The position numbers and the translations under genes are program-made. From NCBI GenBank assembly GCA_944326525.1, contig CALVEG010000001.1, positions 310,001 to 374,000 of the forward strand: 64,000 nucleotides of DNA. The letters run 5' to 3'. Numbering within the stretch: position 1 is the stretch's first letter; every line of letters starts with the position of its first letter. The stretch is from Candidatus Gastranaerophilales bacterium. GTDB taxonomy: Bacteria; Cyanobacteriota; Vampirovibrionia; Gastranaerophilales; Gastranaerophilaceae. Positions 26,783 through 36,124 of the stretch are shown here, piece after piece. The notes below the pieces were generated by a model. It did not search any database. It worked only from the letters and a program-made list of their open reading frames with translations, and had not been told where the DNA came from.

Positions 26783-27793
26783 ATGGACAAGTTTACCATC
26801 AAAGGCTTAATGGATTATTATTTAAGGACAAATAGTACGGGTACGGCATTTAGAGATTTGACGCAAGAGGATTTGGCAAGTCTTGCTGTGCTTTCTATTT
26901 TTGATCAAAAAGGTCAAACTGTTAAAACCAGCAGTTATAGTTATGAAAGGCCTGATGGATTCATAGATTCATCTGAGTTTAACGTAACTCGTGAAGAGTA
27001 TGAAAAAGCTGTAAAAAATATAAGTAAACAAATTAAAAAAGAAATCGGTGCAGATTTTACAGGTGTAAATATTCCCTCATATGACGATATGCAGGCTATG
27101 TTAAAGGGTGATAACAAGATTAGTTTTTCAGAGATAAATTTATTTGTAAGAGAGAAGATTATAAGAGAACCAGGAGCTGAAAAACCAAGACCAATTGTAA
27201 TTCCAGAGAAAACAAAAAGTAATGCAAAAACTCGGGCGCAGATGGAGCAGTTTTTAGCAGAAGTAGAAAACAGCCCTGCAAGTATTGTTGCTATGGAAAG
27301 AATAGATGCAAAGCTGGCGGAGGCACAGAAAAATGGAACAACAGCTTTTGATTTTACTGGTTTGACAGATGATGTCCAGAAGGAAATTGATGCATTTGTT
27401 CCGGATAATGATGCTTCTTATAATGTTCAAGATGGTTTAGACGGCTACCAATACAATGATAACGGGCAGGTCGTAACCCGTATAAATAATACAGCAGGCG
27501 CTTATGAAAAATATAAATATGAAAATGACAAATCAGATGCAAAATATTCAGAAATGATGCGCTATAACGGAAATGGTTATAAAACAGAATATTTCCGTCG
27601 TGAAACATTAATGGGTGAAGACGGCAGATCTTTTACAGGTGTTGTAATTTATGTGCTTGATGAAAACGAAAAAGTAGTAAGAATTACATATCCTGAAGGC
27701 GCTGTTTATGATAAAAAAGTTGATGATTTCAATGATTATAATATGTTTATGCAGTGGCTACAATATGATGAAGCTATTAACGGTGCAGAATAA
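26783..27793 (+). CDS. Unrecognised acidic protein (336 aa)
   Basis: 336 residues, soluble by appearance. The N-terminal 120 residues contain two EF-hand-like acidic stretches (PDGFIDSSEFNVTREEYEK and KGDNKISFSEINLFVREK), each in the D-x-[DN]-x-[IF]-x-x-x-E pattern, so calcium binding is possible. The C-terminal third (about 235-330) is Tyr/Asn/Gly-rich. Shine-Dalgarno AAGGAGAG. It probably belongs with the preceding gene; a shared terminator closes the region. No family recognised. Confidence 0.82.
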   Translation: MDKFTIKGLMDYYLRTNSTGTAFRDLTQEDLASLAVLSIFDQKGQTVKTSSYSYERPDGFIDSSEFNVTREEYEKAVKNISKQIKKEIGADFTGVNIPSYDDMQAMLKGDNKISFSEINLFVREKIIREPGAEKPRPIVIPEKTKSNAKTRAQMEQFLAEVENSPASIVAMERIDAKLAEAQKNGTTAFDFTGLTDDVQKEIDAFVPDNDASYNVQDGLDGYQYNDNGQVVTRINNTAGAYEKYKYENDKSDAKYSEMMRYNGNGYKTEYFRRETLMGEDGRSFTGVVIYVLDENEKVVRITYPEGAVYDKKVDDFNDYNMFMQWLQYDEAINGAE

Positions 27794-27821: not shown

Positions 27822-27852
27822 AAATCCCTGCTTATAAAAGGCGGGGATTTTT
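27822..27852. terminator. Bidirectional terminator between convergent genes
   Basis: Stem AAATCCCTGC / GCGGGGATTT with one G-T pair and a 9-base loop, between the gene ending at 27793 and rel ending at 27851. Confidence 0.8.
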
Positions 27853-30073
27853 AATTTTTCTTATGAGGTTTAGAATTTCTTTGCTTATTATTTTGTTTGT
27901 TGTTTTTAGGGTTTCGTGGCTGATTTGAGTGTGCGTAAGAGGTTTGAACACGTTTTACGCTATAGACATCGGGGATAGATTGAATGCTGTTGATAACTTT
28001 TTTAAGGGTGTCAATGTTGTTTAATTCAATTCCTAGTTCAATAATACCGATTTTGTTATTTTTAGATTTAACGTTTGCGTAATTTATGTTGGTATTGTTA
28101 TCGGAAACAGCAGCGATAATATCTTTAAGAAGTCCCATTTTTTCTGCCGTTTCGACTCTGATTGTAGTACTGTAAGTTTTGGTTGTATGATCACCCGACC
28201 AACGGATATCCATCATTCTTTCCGGGGGTACATTTTCGAGTGTTTTGCAATCTATCCTATGTACAGAAACCCCTTTTGATCTTGTAACAACTCCTACAAT
28301 GGGTTCTCCGGGAATAGGAGAACAGCATCTGGCAAATGAGTACATAAGACCTTCAAGTCCTATAATATCCTTTTCTGATTTTCTTTTCTTCGTAGTGTGG
28401 AAGCTGGTTTCAGGTATTTTCTTTTCTGGTTTTTTAAGCTTATTTATTATTTTATTTAAGGTGGTTTCGCCATATCCCAGTGCTGCGAAAAGGTCGTCAG
28501 CTGATTGGTAATTCATTGCAACTGCAACTTTATCAAACTCACCGGATTTTACGTAATCATCAAAAACTGCTTTTGTAAGTTCGTGTTCGAGATTAGCTTT
28601 ACCGACTTCAATATGGTCTTCACGGTTGTTTTTCTTAAACCACTGTTTAATTTTAGAAGATGCCTGTTTTGTTACAACAAAATTAAGCCAGTCAAGTCGT
28701 GGGGCTTGAGTTTTTGAGGTTAAAATTTCTACGATATCTCCGTTATTTAATTTGGTATCAAGCTGTGCAATACGTCCGTTAATTAAGGCTCCGATAGTTC
28801 TATGTCCGACATCTGAGTGGATTCTGTAAGCAAAATCGACTGGAGTTGCGTTGATTGGTAAATCAAGGACATCGCCGTTTGGGGTGAATGCAAATACTTG
28901 ATCTGAGAATAGGTCAAGTTTAACTGAATTTACGTAATCTTCGGCATTTGTCATATCTTTGCCATATTCCGCCATTTTGCGCATCCAGCTGAATTGCATA
29001 TCGGTTGGGTTGTTAGCCTTTTGAGAACCTTTTTCTTTATATCTCCAGTGTGCGGCAACACCATATTCAGCGACTTCGTGCATTTCCCAAGTTCGGATTT
29101 GAACTTCAAGGGGTTTGGATCTTGGGCCTATAACAGAGGTGTGAAGTGATTGATACATGTTACCTTTGGGCATTGCGATGTAATCTTTAAATCGTCCCGG
29201 TATCGGTTTAAATTGTGAGTGTATAAGTCCCAAAACTTCGTAGCATTCTTTTTCCGTGTCAACGATTACACGAACTGCTGTTATGTCATACAGGTCGTGA
29301 AAAGCAATATTTAAGCGTTTCATTTTGCTGTAAATACTGTAATAGTGTTTTGCACGTCCCGTAATCTGTGCGTTAATTCCGCTTTTTTTGACATCTTGAG
29401 AAATTTTGTCGATAAGCAGGTTAACAGTCATTTCTCTTTCTGCTTTAGTTTGTGATACGAGTTGTGCGATTTCAAAATATTTATCTGGTTCAAGGTATCT
29501 TAAGGAAAGATCTTCCAATTCTGCTTTAATACGTCCGATACCTAAACGATTGGCGAGCGGGGCAAAAATATCAAGAGTTTCACGTGCGATTTTCTGTTGT
29601 TTGTTTGGTGCCATAAAATTAAGGGTTCGCATATTGTGAAGTCGGTCAGCAAGTTTTAAGAAAATTATTCTAATATCATTTGCCATTGCGATGAAAAGTC
29701 TTCTGAAATTTTCAGCCTGACGTTCTTCATTTGATTTAAATTGCAATTTCCCAAGCTTTGTAACTCCTTGGACAAGAGTTAAAACATCGTCACCAAATTG
29801 TTCTTTAATTTCTTCCGGTTTTGTATCCGTGTCTTCCAAAATATCGTGTAAAAAAGCCGCAATAAGAGTATGTGAATCAACTTTTAAGTCAACAAGAATT
29901 TTTGCAACTTCAACCGGATGAATAATATATGGTTCTTCAGAAATTCTATATTGACCTTCGTGAAGTTTTTTGGCAAAAAGGTAAGCTTTTTCTATTTGCT
30001 TTATATCTTCATCATCTCTATTTTGAGCGATTAATTTTTCTTTTATTTCTTCGAAAAGTGGTTTTTCAGACAT
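27851..30073 (-). CDS. rel: Bifunctional (p)ppGpp synthetase/hydrolase
   Basis: 740 residues, long RSH enzyme. HD hydrolase domain (about 25-180) with YIIHPVEVAKIL and AFLHDILEDTDT intact; synthetase domain (about 235-350) with PGRFKDYIAMPKGNMYQSLHT and EVQIRTWEMHEVAEYGVAAHW; TGS (about 390-450) with VFAFTPNGDVLDLPINATPVDFAY; a Cys/His segment (SFARCCSPIPGEPIVG), and ACT (about 660-725). Both activities appear intact. The last 25 residues are an Asn/Lys/Gln-rich basic tail. TATAAT at -12 to -7 and no Shine-Dalgarno: probably leaderless. Confidence 0.95.
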   Translation of the reverse strand: MSEKPLFEEIKEKLIAQNRDDEDIKQIEKAYLFAKKLHEGQYRISEEPYIIHPVEVAKILVDLKVDSHTLIAAFLHDILEDTDTKPEEIKEQFGDDVLTLVQGVTKLGKLQFKSNEERQAENFRRLFIAMANDIRIIFLKLADRLHNMRTLNFMAPNKQQKIARETLDIFAPLANRLGIGRIKAELEDLSLRYLEPDKYFEIAQLVSQTKAEREMTVNLLIDKISQDVKKSGINAQITGRAKHYYSIYSKMKRLNIAFHDLYDITAVRVIVDTEKECYEVLGLIHSQFKPIPGRFKDYIAMPKGNMYQSLHTSVIGPRSKPLEVQIRTWEMHEVAEYGVAAHWRYKEKGSQKANNPTDMQFSWMRKMAEYGKDMTNAEDYVNSVKLDLFSDQVFAFTPNGDVLDLPINATPVDFAYRIHSDVGHRTIGALINGRIAQLDTKLNNGDIVEILTSKTQAPRLDWLNFVVTKQASSKIKQWFKKNNREDHIEVGKANLEHELTKAVFDDYVKSGEFDKVAVAMNYQSADDLFAALGYGETTLNKIINKLKKPEKKIPETSFHTTKKRKSEKDIIGLEGLMYSFARCCSPIPGEPIVGVVTRSKGVSVHRIDCKTLENVPPERMMDIRWSGDHTTKTYSTTIRVETAEKMGLLKDIIAAVSDNNTNINYANVKSKNNKIGIIELGIELNNIDTLKKVINSIQSIPDVYSVKRVQTSYAHSNQPRNPKNNKQNNKQRNSKPHKKN

Positions 30074-30507: not shown

Positions 30508-30876
30508 ATGAAGATACAAGCTATGAATTCTTCAAAATATGATTCAACATCATTTGGAGTAAAAGTTTCGCCGAAATTGCAGAAAAAACTTAAGGCAGAG
30601 GCTAAGGCGTTAGGTGAAGATAAGCTAAGAAAAGTAAAATATCAAATATCAAAAGTAGAAAGATGGGGAAATCCTGAGTCTATTGTTGATCTTCAGTATT
30701 CTCAAGCAGAGTCCTTAAATTATATAACAATAAAAAATCCAAAAATTTCAAAGCGAGTTTATACTACTATTACATACGGAACAAAAGCAGGAGAAGCTTT
30801 CAATTTGTTATCGGAAGGATTAATAAAGAAAACAGAGAAAATTCTTCGTGATGCAATTTGTAAATATGATAATTAA
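30508..30876 (+). CDS. Small unrecognised protein with N-terminal FG signature (1)
   Basis: 122 residues, basic. It starts MKIQAMNSSKYDSTSFGVKVSPKL; the SFGVK element at 15-19 recurs in the next gene (NFGIK). The middle has SLNYITIKNPKISKRVYTTITYG. No signal peptide by the usual rules and no membrane span. Shine-Dalgarno AGAAGGAAA. First of two small genes with a shared layout: short polar lead, F-G-[VI]-K, a variable helix, then a beta segment and a C-terminal helix with LLSEGL / LLQAWF. Confidence 0.8.
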   Translation: MKIQAMNSSKYDSTSFGVKVSPKLQKKLKAEAKALGEDKLRKVKYQISKVERWGNPESIVDLQYSQAESLNYITIKNPKISKRVYTTITYGTKAGEAFNLLSEGLIKKTEKILRDAICKYDN

Positions 30877-30897
30877 ATTAACTGAAAGGAAATAGTC

Positions 30898-31419
30898 ATG
30901 CAAGTGAATGCAATTACCCAGAATAATAAAAGTAATAATGTGAATTTTGGAATAAAGATTAGCGGAAAAGTTTCAAATGAGATCTGTAAGGAAATTTTTG
31001 ATCAAAAAATGAATAAATATATGCCCTCATATGTTCATCAGTATGAAAGGTTAAGAGCTTCAGGAATGGATAGTTCAGAACTTTATCTTGTCCGAGGCAA
31101 AGATCATGACACATTTATGCTAAAAAATTCTACAATAACAACAGCTTATGAAAAGCCTATTGCGAGGGCAGAAAAAGGTAATTTGCTTCAGGCTTGGTTT
31201 AATATAAAACCTGAAGACATTCAAAATGCCGAAAAAATGTTAAGAGAAGTAATTGAAGAAAAACGACAAGGTCTTGTTTCAATGGCTGATAATGTAGTTG
31301 TTCGAGCTTTGTTATACAGCAAAAATAATGAAAAAAATGTTTCGAAAGCTGTTGAAAAACTTGATGATAATACCGTAATTGATTTGTTTTATCAGGCAAA
31401 AGGCATAGTTAAGTCATAA
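30898..31419 (+). CDS. Small unrecognised protein with N-terminal FG signature (2)
   Basis: 173 residues. It starts MQVNAITQNNKSNNVNFGIKISGKV, paralogous in outline to the preceding gene (FGIKISGKV against FGVKVSPKL; DTFMLKNSTITTAYEKP against LNYITIKNPKISKRVYT). The extra C-terminal 50 residues form a helical extension. Shine-Dalgarno GAAAGGAAA. Probably co-transcribed with the preceding gene (21-base gap). Function unknown. Confidence 0.8.
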   Translation: MQVNAITQNNKSNNVNFGIKISGKVSNEICKEIFDQKMNKYMPSYVHQYERLRASGMDSSELYLVRGKDHDTFMLKNSTITTAYEKPIARAEKGNLLQAWFNIKPEDIQNAEKMLREVIEEKRQGLVSMADNVVVRALLYSKNNEKNVSKAVEKLDDNTVIDLFYQAKGIVKS

Positions 31420-31434: not shown

Positions 31435-31465
31435 TTGAAAAAAAATCTTTTTAAGCTACTATAAG
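31435..31465 (+). promoter_or_regulatory. Candidate promoter for His leader transcript
   Basis: TTGAAA (31435-31440) and TATAAG (31460-31465) with a 19-base spacer. Start expected near 31472, giving a short leader before the peptide ATG at 31485. Confidence 0.45.
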
Positions 31466-31484
31466 AATAATTAAAGGGAAAATA

Positions 31485-31556
31485 ATGGAAAATCAAATTT
31501 TAAAACTTCATCATCACCATCATCATAGCGACCTGAGAAGGGCTGTGAATTGGTAG
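31485..31556 (+). CDS. Histidine-rich leader peptide (23 aa)
   Basis: A 23-codon frame: eight codons (MENQILKL), then six consecutive His codons at 31509-31526 (CAT CAT CAC CAT CAT CAT), then SDLRRAVNW and TAG. AAAGGG lies seven bases before the ATG. The His run followed at once by an antiterminator arm and terminator matches the layout of amino-acid leader peptides such as hisL of enteric bacteria. The peptide itself is expected to have no function; its translation senses charged tRNA-His. The gene downstream is not a recognised histidine gene. Confidence 0.8.
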   Translation: MENQILKLHHHHHHSDLRRAVNW

Positions 31557-31653
31557 AGCGCGCGAAAGTTTTAAAATCAATTCAATTCTAATAAGAAAAT
31601 GGCCTTTCTCGGGATATGAGCGTGAAAGGTTATTTTTTACCCGAAAAGCGGGT
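31532..31653 (+). promoter_or_regulatory. Histidine attenuator: antiterminator and terminator
   Basis: Two mutually exclusive folds. Antiterminator: CCTGAGAAGGGCT (31532-31544) pairs with GGCCTTTCTCGGG (31601-31613), 13 contiguous pairs including three G-U. Terminator: GGCCTTTC (31601-31608) pairs with GAAAGGTT (31624-31631) plus two inner pairs, followed by TTATTTTTT (31630-31638). The arm 31601-31608 is common to both. A ribosome stalled on the His codons leaves 31532-31544 free, so the antiterminator forms and transcription continues; a ribosome reaching the TAG at 31554 covers that arm and the terminator forms. A further small stem (ACCCG/CGGGT, 31639-31653) follows. Confidence 0.75.
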
Positions 31654-31690
31654 TAATTTAGAAGATTAGAATTGGAGAAAAGAAAATAAA

Positions 31691-33064
31691 ATGACATTAA
31701 CAAATATTATATCGGCAATAGGAAATACAAGCAGTGTTTACCCCCTTATACTTCGTGATTGCGGGGTTGAGATTCCGTCAAAAGTTTACCTTACTTATCA
31801 GGAAAACAAAGACGATAAAAATGTTGCATTTTTAGCGACAAGAGAAAGGATTATTGATGAATATGCAACATCTGCTGTTTGGCTTGGCGGAATACCGCTT
31901 GTAGAAAGATTAGTTAATAAATTTGTGATAAAAAGAAAAGGTTTTGCGCCAGATGTCAATTTAAAATTATTTAAAGAAAGCGATTGTCAGGGGTTGGAGT
32001 ATAATACAAAAGCTTTTTCCGAAAGAATTAAAAACGGTGAAATCACCGGAAATATGGCGAAGAAAATTGAGCAGTCAATTGAAGATTTGAAAAAGGTTAA
32101 GGGAAATAAAGCTTTGTATGAAAAGCTATTATCTGCAAAATTTGCTGCTGCAACGGTTATTCCGATAGCTTTTATGGGATTTATAATCCCGAAAATGGTG
32201 TTTGGGCTTACTGCAAAAACAAAAGCCGCACAAAAAGAACGTGACCAGAAAAAACAGCTTAATAATGGCAAACCTATTTCTAATACTAATTTACAGTTCG
32301 GAGCTTTAAATAAAGATGTATTTTCTTCAATGTCATTAAGAAAATCTTCTTCAGTTGCTTTTGGCGGAAATATGGCATCTTCAATTGCTAATTTTACAAC
32401 TTACCAGAAAATGGCGGCTATTGACGGCGGTTATGCTGTCGGACGCGTTGTTACATCAAGAAAGAAAAATGAGGCGGTAGATTTAGGTTTTAAGATGCTT
32501 GGAATGATGTTTCTTAATTATGTAGCGCCCAAATATATTGAAAAAATTCTTGATTCTGCGGCAAATAAAGCACTTAATCTTGATGTAAAGCTGGATCCGA
32601 TTATGCTTGCTGATAAAGAATTTTTACAACAAATTGCTGATAAATCTTTACCTCTTCCTAAAAGTAACGACGGCAAGGAGCTTTTGAAATTTATTGACGA
32701 AAATCCTGATGCATTGTTTACAAAGTATGCTGCAAAGTTTGAAAAAGTAAAACTTCTTTACGAAAATCCGAAAATTAGGAAGAACGGAATTAGAGATCCA
32801 AAAGCTTATGTAGATATAAAGGAGCTTGCAAAATTTAAAAAATCCATAGAAGAATTTGCTCAGATGGCAAGAGCTTCTGCAGGAACTTCTACATTGGATG
32901 CGGTTCAAAGATTTGCAAAGAAGGCAAAGTTCGTGAAATCTTTGAATATATTGACAAATGTTGGGTTAAGCAGTTTTCTTCTGGCTTACTGTTTGCCAAA
33001 AGTGCAGTATGTATTTAGAGAATGGTATACAGGCTCTAAACTTGAACCGGGTATTGTAGACTAA
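31691..33064 (+). CDS. Unrecognised membrane protein behind His attenuator
   Basis: 457 residues. Hydrophobic segments at about 55-75, 155-178, 270-290 and 425-445; long polar helical linkers between them. An internal NLQFGALN (about 201-208) and SSVAFGGN (about 220) echo the FG signature of neighbouring small proteins. It has no transporter, aminotransferase or tRNA-synthetase motif, and nothing that ties it to histidine. Shine-Dalgarno TTGGAG. The only visible promoter is that of the leader at 31435, so its expression should depend on the attenuator. It ends before a strong terminator. Confidence 0.85.
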   Translation: MTLTNIISAIGNTSSVYPLILRDCGVEIPSKVYLTYQENKDDKNVAFLATRERIIDEYATSAVWLGGIPLVERLVNKFVIKRKGFAPDVNLKLFKESDCQGLEYNTKAFSERIKNGEITGNMAKKIEQSIEDLKKVKGNKALYEKLLSAKFAAATVIPIAFMGFIIPKMVFGLTAKTKAAQKERDQKKQLNNGKPISNTNLQFGALNKDVFSSMSLRKSSSVAFGGNMASSIANFTTYQKMAAIDGGYAVGRVVTSRKKNEAVDLGFKMLGMMFLNYVAPKYIEKILDSAANKALNLDVKLDPIMLADKEFLQQIADKSLPLPKSNDGKELLKFIDENPDALFTKYAAKFEKVKLLYENPKIRKNGIRDPKAYVDIKELAKFKKSIEEFAQMARASAGTSTLDAVQRFAKKAKFVKSLNILTNVGLSSFLLAYCLPKVQYVFREWYTGSKLEPGIVD

Positions 33065-33088: not shown

Positions 33089-33117
33089 AAAAAAGCGGGC
33101 ATGATGCCCGCTTTTTG
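33089..33117. terminator. Bidirectional terminator between convergent genes
   Basis: Stem AAAAAGCGGGC / GCCCGCTTTTT around ATGAT; serves the membrane protein gene on plus and the UDG gene on minus. Confidence 0.92.
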
Positions 33118-35344: not shown

Positions 35345-36124
35345 CTAAGTAAGTTGTAGATTTATGTTTGATGTTTTATTGACGTAGTTTGTGAGTGCTT
35401 TAAAAACAAACGGATGCAATTTACCGTCTTTTACGTCTGCGTAAATTATAGTCAATGCTTGCTGAGGGGTAAATGCTTCTTTATAAGGTCTTTTTTCCGT
35501 TAGCGCAGAATATTTGTCAGCCATAGATAGAATTTGTAAGTTTAAATCTGCCATAAAATCTTGCGTAACAAAAGGATATCCGCTTTTCTTTGCATTTTGA
35601 TGATGGTTTCTTATAAGGTTAAGCGTTTTTTTATCAAGATTAGTGTTCTTTAAAATTTCATAACTAAGTTCAGAGTGCTTGTGCATGATTTTTGTTTCAG
35701 CTTCGTTAAGTTTTCCTTGTTTATTTAATATTTCGCTTGGAATGAGAACTTTTCCGATGTCGTGAAGGTATGAAGCGTCAAGAAGCGCTTTTTCATCAAC
35801 AAAATTTCGGAGAGAAAACGGCAGATTTTGAATAATTCCGGATGAGATATTTCTTACATCATTGCAATGATTGTTTAAAAGTGGTTTTAAATCCTCAAAA
35901 TTCAATACAGGTTCAATAGAAACTTCTTTTAAAATCGCATTTATTTTAGGATTTGAATTTACAAGTTTGGTGATTACGGCTTCATTAGCAAATCTTTCAG
36001 GAAGGTTGCTTTCAAACCTGTCTTCAGAAGCGTTATGCCTGAAGTTGACAGGCGTTGTTTGCCTTTTGTGCTCAACGCTGTTAACGCCATACGTACGTAA
36101 TAAGGAATTTATTTCCAATCCCAT
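35345..36124 (-). CDS. HD-GYP domain protein, probable c-di-GMP phosphodiesterase
   Basis: 259 residues. Polar N-terminus (1-50), then an HD-GYP domain (about 85-255): DASYLHDIGKVLIPSEILNK, IMHKHSELSYEIL, NHHQNAKKSGYP and ADKYSALTEKRPYKEAF. The usual HHE is HHQ here and the GYP triplet is intact, so metal binding may differ slightly. No receiver or sensor domain is recognisable. The start MGLEINSLLRTYG resembles MGLEVSKVSAADT of the gene at 16135. Ribosome site only fair (AAGGTG, ten bases upstream). Confidence 0.85.
   Translation of the reverse strand: MGLEINSLLRTYGVNSVEHKRQTTPVNFRHNASEDRFESNLPERFANEAVITKLVNSNPKINAILKEVSIEPVLNFEDLKPLLNNHCNDVRNISSGIIQNLPFSLRNFVDEKALLDASYLHDIGKVLIPSEILNKQGKLNEAETKIMHKHSELSYEILKNTNLDKKTLNLIRNHHQNAKKSGYPFVTQDFMADLNLQILSMADKYSALTEKRPYKEAFTPQQALTIIYADVKDGKLHPFVFKALTNYVNKTSNINLQLT

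Follow-up and report, generated by a model that had tools for sequence, protein, structure and literature searches.

In a 64,000-nt stretch of DNA from a Candidatus Gastranaerophilales bacterium (hereafter the window), we describe what is probably a classical histidine attenuator with a dual output, acting on a lineage-specific membrane protein for histidine acquisition. The attenuator parts span positions 31485–31638 and comprise a leader peptide with six His, an antiterminator of 15 bp and, overlapping it, a terminator (Table 1). The product of the gene behind them is most likely part of the uptake or scavenging of histidine, or of His-containing peptides, in Gastranaerophilales that are auxotrophic for this amino acid. 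As far as sequence comparison allows, the attenuator is strongly supported; histidine acquisition is, we infer, the simplest reading of the regulation, the phylogenetic complementarity and the protein composition taken together.

A His-codon leader before mutually exclusive hairpins

As in other ribosome-mediated attenuators, the regulatory codons form a run within a short leader that has a ribosome site of its own, and this run is the only one of at least five His codons in the 1.95-Mb genome. An earlier note on this DNA had described the 23-codon leader with its six His codons and AAAGGG, and the terminator that shares an arm with the antiterminator, and both descriptions agree with the sequence. 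The antiterminator that it proposed also exists, but its 13 bp were too few: helix C consists of 15 uninterrupted pairs that begin five bases past the His codons, with a further 7 bp inside. Because the 5′ arm of the terminator overlaps the 3′ arm of the antiterminator, the two hairpins exclude each other. Helix A, which starts before the His codons, would by analogy correspond to the protecting helix known from classical attenuators and, without translation of the leader, would favour the terminator state. Promoter-like sites such as those upstream are no commoner in the region than in shuffles, and most relatives have a TTGA-type sequence at a similar distance in the loci compared.

Table 1. 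Features of the attenuator and the controlled gene (positions in the window)
Feature	Position	Strand	Pairing or basis
Promoter-like sites TTGAAA-16-TACTAT	31435–31462	+	consensus match only
AAAGGG, leader ribosome site	31473–31478	+	sequence
Leader peptide ORF MENQILKLHHHHHHSDLRRAVNW	31485–31556	+	23 codons (31485–31553) and TAG stop (31554–31556)
Helix A, 5′ arm, before the His codons	31498–31507	+	10/10 pairs with 31567–31576; own arms beat swapped arms
Six consecutive His codons	31509–31526	+	sequence
Antiterminator (helix C), 5′ arm	31532–31546	+	15 pairs with 31599–31613; double changes in 3 of them within the genus
Inner antiterminator helix, 5′ arm GAATTGG	31547–31553	+	pairs with 31577–31583; 96.9% of cells paired
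Helix A, 3′ arm	31567–31576	+	paired at P = 0.97 in the fold without a ribosome
Inner antiterminator helix, 3′ arm	31577–31583	+	7 bp with 31547–31553
Anti-RBS arm CAATTCTAAT (helix R)	31583–31592	+	10 contiguous pairs with 31665–31674
Antiterminator (helix C), 3′ arm, common to terminator 5′ arm	31599–31613	+	pairs with 31532–31546
Terminator hairpin	31600–31632	+	31600–31608 pairs with 31624–31632
U-tract TTATTTTTT	31630–31638	+	sequence; terminator end
ATTAGAATTG (31665–31674) running into GGAG, ribosome site of the gene (31674–31677)	31665–31677	+	sequence
Controlled gene for a protein of 457 aa, helical, membrane-associated and without His, in the lineage-specific family ‘type A’	31691–33064	+	

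The proposed folding check of both states bore out the two hairpins: against dinucleotide shuffles, the whole leader has a z of −3.7 and the terminator and antiterminator segments −4.4 each, and none of 200 shuffles matched the stability of the native segments. In constrained folds, the terminator forms without a ribosome or with one placed at the leader stop. With the ribosome on the first His codon (His1), the antiterminator is the minimum-free-energy structure, only about even with the terminator at equilibrium, and with a stall at the fifth (His5) the terminator forms again. In these folds a stalled ribosome thus frees the antiterminator arm at His1 and not at His5, and the model therefore needs stalling at early His codons together with kinetic folding. 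A weak third helix (helix D, 31553–31564 with 31613–31626; z −2.2 to −4.4 for own versus swapped arms) joins the antiterminator loop to the terminator loop, for example through TGCGTTA/TAACGTA in relative L060 and TCGCTTTT/AAAAGCGA in L037; a pseudoknot would result.

Predicted pairing with the ribosome site of the gene

The anti-RBS arm is the complement of ATTAGAATTG, the last base of which is the first G of the gene’s GGAG. Its CAATTC word can pair alternatively with GAATTG of the inner antiterminator arm, a word that recurs in the RBS region of the gene; as in translational (RBS-sequestering) attenuators, an RBS-complementary arm thus competes with the antiterminator. In the constrained folds, GGAG is for the most part closed when no ribosome is present or when one sits at the leader stop or on His5, and it is more open with a ribosome on His1. 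Such pairing would allow control of the gene at its ribosome site.

Within the genus this pairing is nearly invariant, and both it and the terminator are too constant there to count as covariation. Among the relatives, L029, L031 and L056 have lost the U-tract and kept the antiterminator and the RBS pairing. In L039, L041, L046, L047, L051 and L055 no terminator is evident by eye, which leaves the translational switch alone; a T-rich stretch is still there in L039 and L041, hence the judgement by eye. In L046, for instance, the possible pairings are GGTTATAATGTG with CACATTATAACC and, as the alternative, CAATTTCACATT with AATGTGAGATTG beside GGAG; together they would make up a purely translational form of the switch.

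Conservation and covariation across genomes

Several lines of comparative evidence support the attenuator. First, a DNA search found the leader in 14 of the 14 genomes searched of the genus. His-rich leaders also lie upstream of 40 of the 44 named Gastranaerophilales orthologs, the remaining four having weaker leaders by eye, and before 18 of 19 further orthologs, and the His leader is kept down to about 45–50% protein identity.

Second, arms pair better with their own partners than with partners swapped between loci. Across 37 loci, z was −10.8 for the antiterminator, −8.7 for the terminator, −9.1 for the RBS pairing and −7.8 for helix A; across the 10 loci below 65% identity, the corresponding values were −6.3, −4.8, −5.7 and −5.1. 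Over all helices, z ran from −3.4 to −10.8 and from −2.2 to −6.3 in the two sets, values that are supportive rather than exact, since the permutation leaves shared ancestry in. Within the genus, besides the double changes, 95.5% of antiterminator cells are paired, against 33–54% when the arms are slid.

Third, a covariance model of the leader has matches in 117 of the 241 genomes of the order, one each except for one genome with two, and those compared by coordinate lie directly upstream of the gene. The neighbouring genes vary between genera in the locus comparison, and leader and gene therefore form a conserved unit; by the same token, the neighbourhood, not being conserved between genera, yields no clue to function. 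Two sets of matches were set aside: weak ones in hisD-positive genomes of genus g47, three of the four sequences being alike and without a short His ORF (coding identity by eye), and the second match in genome G178, a plain terminator.

AT-rich DNA abounds in hairpins and promoter-like sites, and a His-rich short ORF could lie beside an ordinary terminator by chance. Conservation in dozens of genomes with covarying exclusive helices refutes this explanation, to which we assign a negligible probability. The classical attenuation logic that had been read into the locus holds across genera, with the leader, the alternative folds and their order conserved and the arms covarying, and the suggested survey of Gastranaerophilales relatives returned His leaders, compensatory pairs and the downstream gene alike. 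The RBS pairing, helix A, the weaker helix D and the link to His auxotrophy had been missed.

The controlled protein

The transcription unit looks monocistronic: promoter-like sites precede the leader (Table 1), the next ORF is on the other strand, and a hairpin lies at 33090–33116. The type A protein has about four moderately hydrophobic segments, with stretches around 62–80, 153–171 and 414–442, and its AlphaFold model is helical (pLDDT 81, pTM 0.72). It was rightly called an unrecognised membrane protein. Searches against Pfam, NCBIfam, PHROGs and PDB sequences gave nothing above cut-off, which includes the Pfam and NCBIfam models of known amino-acid transporter families, and a Foldseek search of the model gave no match at E 0.001. 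Structure comparison (Foldseek, VIA-align) reached a best Z of 5.9, within noise for helical models; the best structural rows, membrane pyrophosphatase, ABC exporters and the MSL channel, fall within the range expected of unrelated helical proteins. Because the hydrophobic segments are few and moderate and neither a family nor a convincing fold was matched, transport is a guess from genetics.

The composition of the family is distinctive. Histidine makes up 0.14% of type A residues, against 1.35% in the ORFs of the window and 1.87% in flanking ORFs, and 25 of 39 orthologs have no histidine at all, as is true of the 457-aa protein itself. A single His-free protein is not exceptional, but depletion across the family is. 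Such avoidance would be expected of a protein that the cell has to produce when it runs short of histidine. Two other long ORFs of the window also lack histidine (26783–27793 and 61588 onward; 336 and 623 aa).

As a separate observation, the neighbouring ORFs at 30508–31419 and 35345–36124 have short F-x-G-like words in common (TSFGVKVS, VNFGIKIS, VNFRHN), and F224-x-G226 is invariant in the controlled protein; the words are possibly a lineage-wide sorting or interaction motif.

Complementarity with histidine biosynthesis

The earlier note saw no known link between the gene and histidine, yet across genomes the gene replaces histidine biosynthesis. hisD and hisG each occur in 76 of the 241 genomes of the order, and the two lists of genomes are identical. 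Both genes are absent from the source genome (98.5% complete) and from ten other members of its genus in the 241-genome sample, and hisD is absent from 14 of 14 genus genomes. Strong type A orthologs (profile E of 1e-56 or better) occur in 141 of the 241 genomes, distributed as 3 of 76 with hisD versus 138 of 165 without. Within g6, g21 and g47, the three genera that hold both hisD states in number, the figures are 1 of 31 versus 15 of 19, all of these counts being tallied by hand and ignoring kinship (no tree correction).

The exclusion has exceptions in both directions. Twenty-seven hisD-negative genomes do without a strong ortholog and three hisD-positive genomes have both, so that the type A protein is neither the only route to histidine nor strictly tied to auxotrophy. 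Those three (G018, G174 and G025) still carry His leaders; in the hisD-positive genomes inspected, the homologs lack a His leader and are preceded instead by leaders of the Arg type or by one that contains no run. In G174, hisG and hisD lie side by side (G174:C10:29015-30756), with model scores above those of all other genomes, whose listed positions are apart; this looks like a his operon regained beside the His-leader gene, or like contamination.

Paralogs behind Arg leaders

The source genome also encodes a paralog (type B, L097:1093-2946 on G000:C8) behind two tandem Arg leaders. In the first, MIQYRRRKLINEVLFKD, the GAGGTTTTGTTTAAA/TTTAAACAAGACCTC antiterminator pairing and the terminator are clear alternatives; the second has CGACGA codons. 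Arg-rich leaders recur across the paralog family, and type B tends to exclude argininosuccinate synthase (argG), in the same direction as in the His case. argG is present in 12 of 49 relatives, and strong type B paralogs (E of 1e-25 or better) occur in 1 of the 12 with argG versus 28 of the 37 without, a small test with thresholds chosen after seeing the data. No leaders were seen in a third subfamily (520–560 aa). The second leader before type B (L097:1334-1420; equivalents in L105–L134 and L208–L225) ends in a conserved MNLxWGL-stop, kept even without Arg codons (L223–L225), which might reflect an arrest peptide or a constraint on the RNA.

These data bear on the main rival to histidine acquisition, in which the attenuator is real and histidine shortage serves only as a starvation signal, the protein doing other work, such as envelope remodelling, adhesion or stress defence, from which auxotrophs would profit in times of low host nutrients. 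The lack of a recognised transporter family or fold and the few hydrophobic segments would fit such a role, as would a RelA/SpoT-like ORF (27851–30073) that adjoins the locus and has a relative in 14 of the 23 loci compared. The exclusion is pathway-specific, however, his for type A and argG for the Arg-leader type B, and if the gene served starvation in general, one would expect it in His prototrophs too and would expect no amino-acid-matched paralogs. We consider this explanation unlikely. Of the two options that had been set out, handling histidine or using its shortage as a signal, the first is favoured, by the replacement of biosynthesis and by the almost His-free protein.

A further suggestion, a metal-sensing role of the His run, finds no support, and we think it highly improbable; on this view the nascent peptide would bind metal or arrest, and would sense Ni, Zn or Cu instead of His-tRNA charging. 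Six His in a row do bind metals in other contexts, but in relatives the run is often interrupted by Tyr, Arg, Asn, Ser, Cys or Leu-Ile (HYYHHH, HLIHHH, HRHHH, HHHHCH) while the RNA arms persist; the Arg leaders of the paralogs and the association with hisD/hisG loss also argue against it, and no metal gene was recognised nearby.

Relation to known systems

The locus resembles the enteric his operon attenuator (Rfam His_leader) in its His-codon leader, its exclusive antiterminator and terminator with a shared arm, its pre-leader helix and the order of its parts. It differs in that its target is a membrane protein and its hosts have no his genes, in the extra RBS-sequestering arm and in the loss of the terminator or U-tract in some relatives; the Rfam comparison that had been proposed brought no family, His_leader included, to its gathering score in the window. 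His-specific T-box riboswitches likewise sense His-tRNA charging and can control transporters; here, in contrast, the sensor is a translated leader peptide, and no T-box covariance-model match was found in the window.

In some Firmicutes, His attenuators are reported to control his operons and the hisZ*YX transporter (PMC9413887). Their leaders, with three to five His codons, likewise precede alternative hairpins, and some control transport genes; the present locus belongs to another phylum, and its target family has no Pfam, NCBIfam, PHROG or PDB relative. RBS-sequestering translational attenuators are a known variant (PMC9413887), in which leader translation decides the pairing of the next gene’s RBS as proposed here, except that here this arrangement stands beside a terminator in most members and alone in the terminator-less group that includes L046. 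His-leader attenuation and RBS-sequestering attenuators are thus already known; what is new is the target, the lineage in which the attenuator occurs, its dual output and the matching of paralogs to leaders for different amino acids. We found no report in the literature on histidine and attenuation in Gastranaerophilales or Melainabacteria.

Proposed mechanism and implications

We propose that, when charged His-tRNA is plentiful, the ribosome would move past the His codons as far as the stop of the leader, covering the antiterminator 5′ arm, so that the terminator would form; in transcripts that escape termination, CAATTCTAAT would pair at and before the gene’s GGAG and lower translation. When His-tRNA is uncharged, the ribosome would stall on the first His codons, mask the pre-His arm of helix A and leave 31532–31553 free. 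The antiterminator could then take up the terminator arm and the CAATTC region, with the result that the gene would be transcribed and its ribosome site opened.

A wider proposal, on which our judgement is evenly balanced, is that type A and type B belong to a new membrane-protein family for amino-acid acquisition, in which paralogs have replaced lost pathways under cognate attenuators, His for type A and tandem Arg for type B. A protein family that general databases miss gains a testable function in this way, and most genomes of an abundant gut lineage carry the family: the attenuator shows which amino acid is concerned, and the missing pathway shows why it is needed. If these readings are true, an amino-acid attenuator has shifted from transcriptional to translational control in one lineage with its sensor unchanged, and the family would be a new kind of nutrient-acquisition protein.
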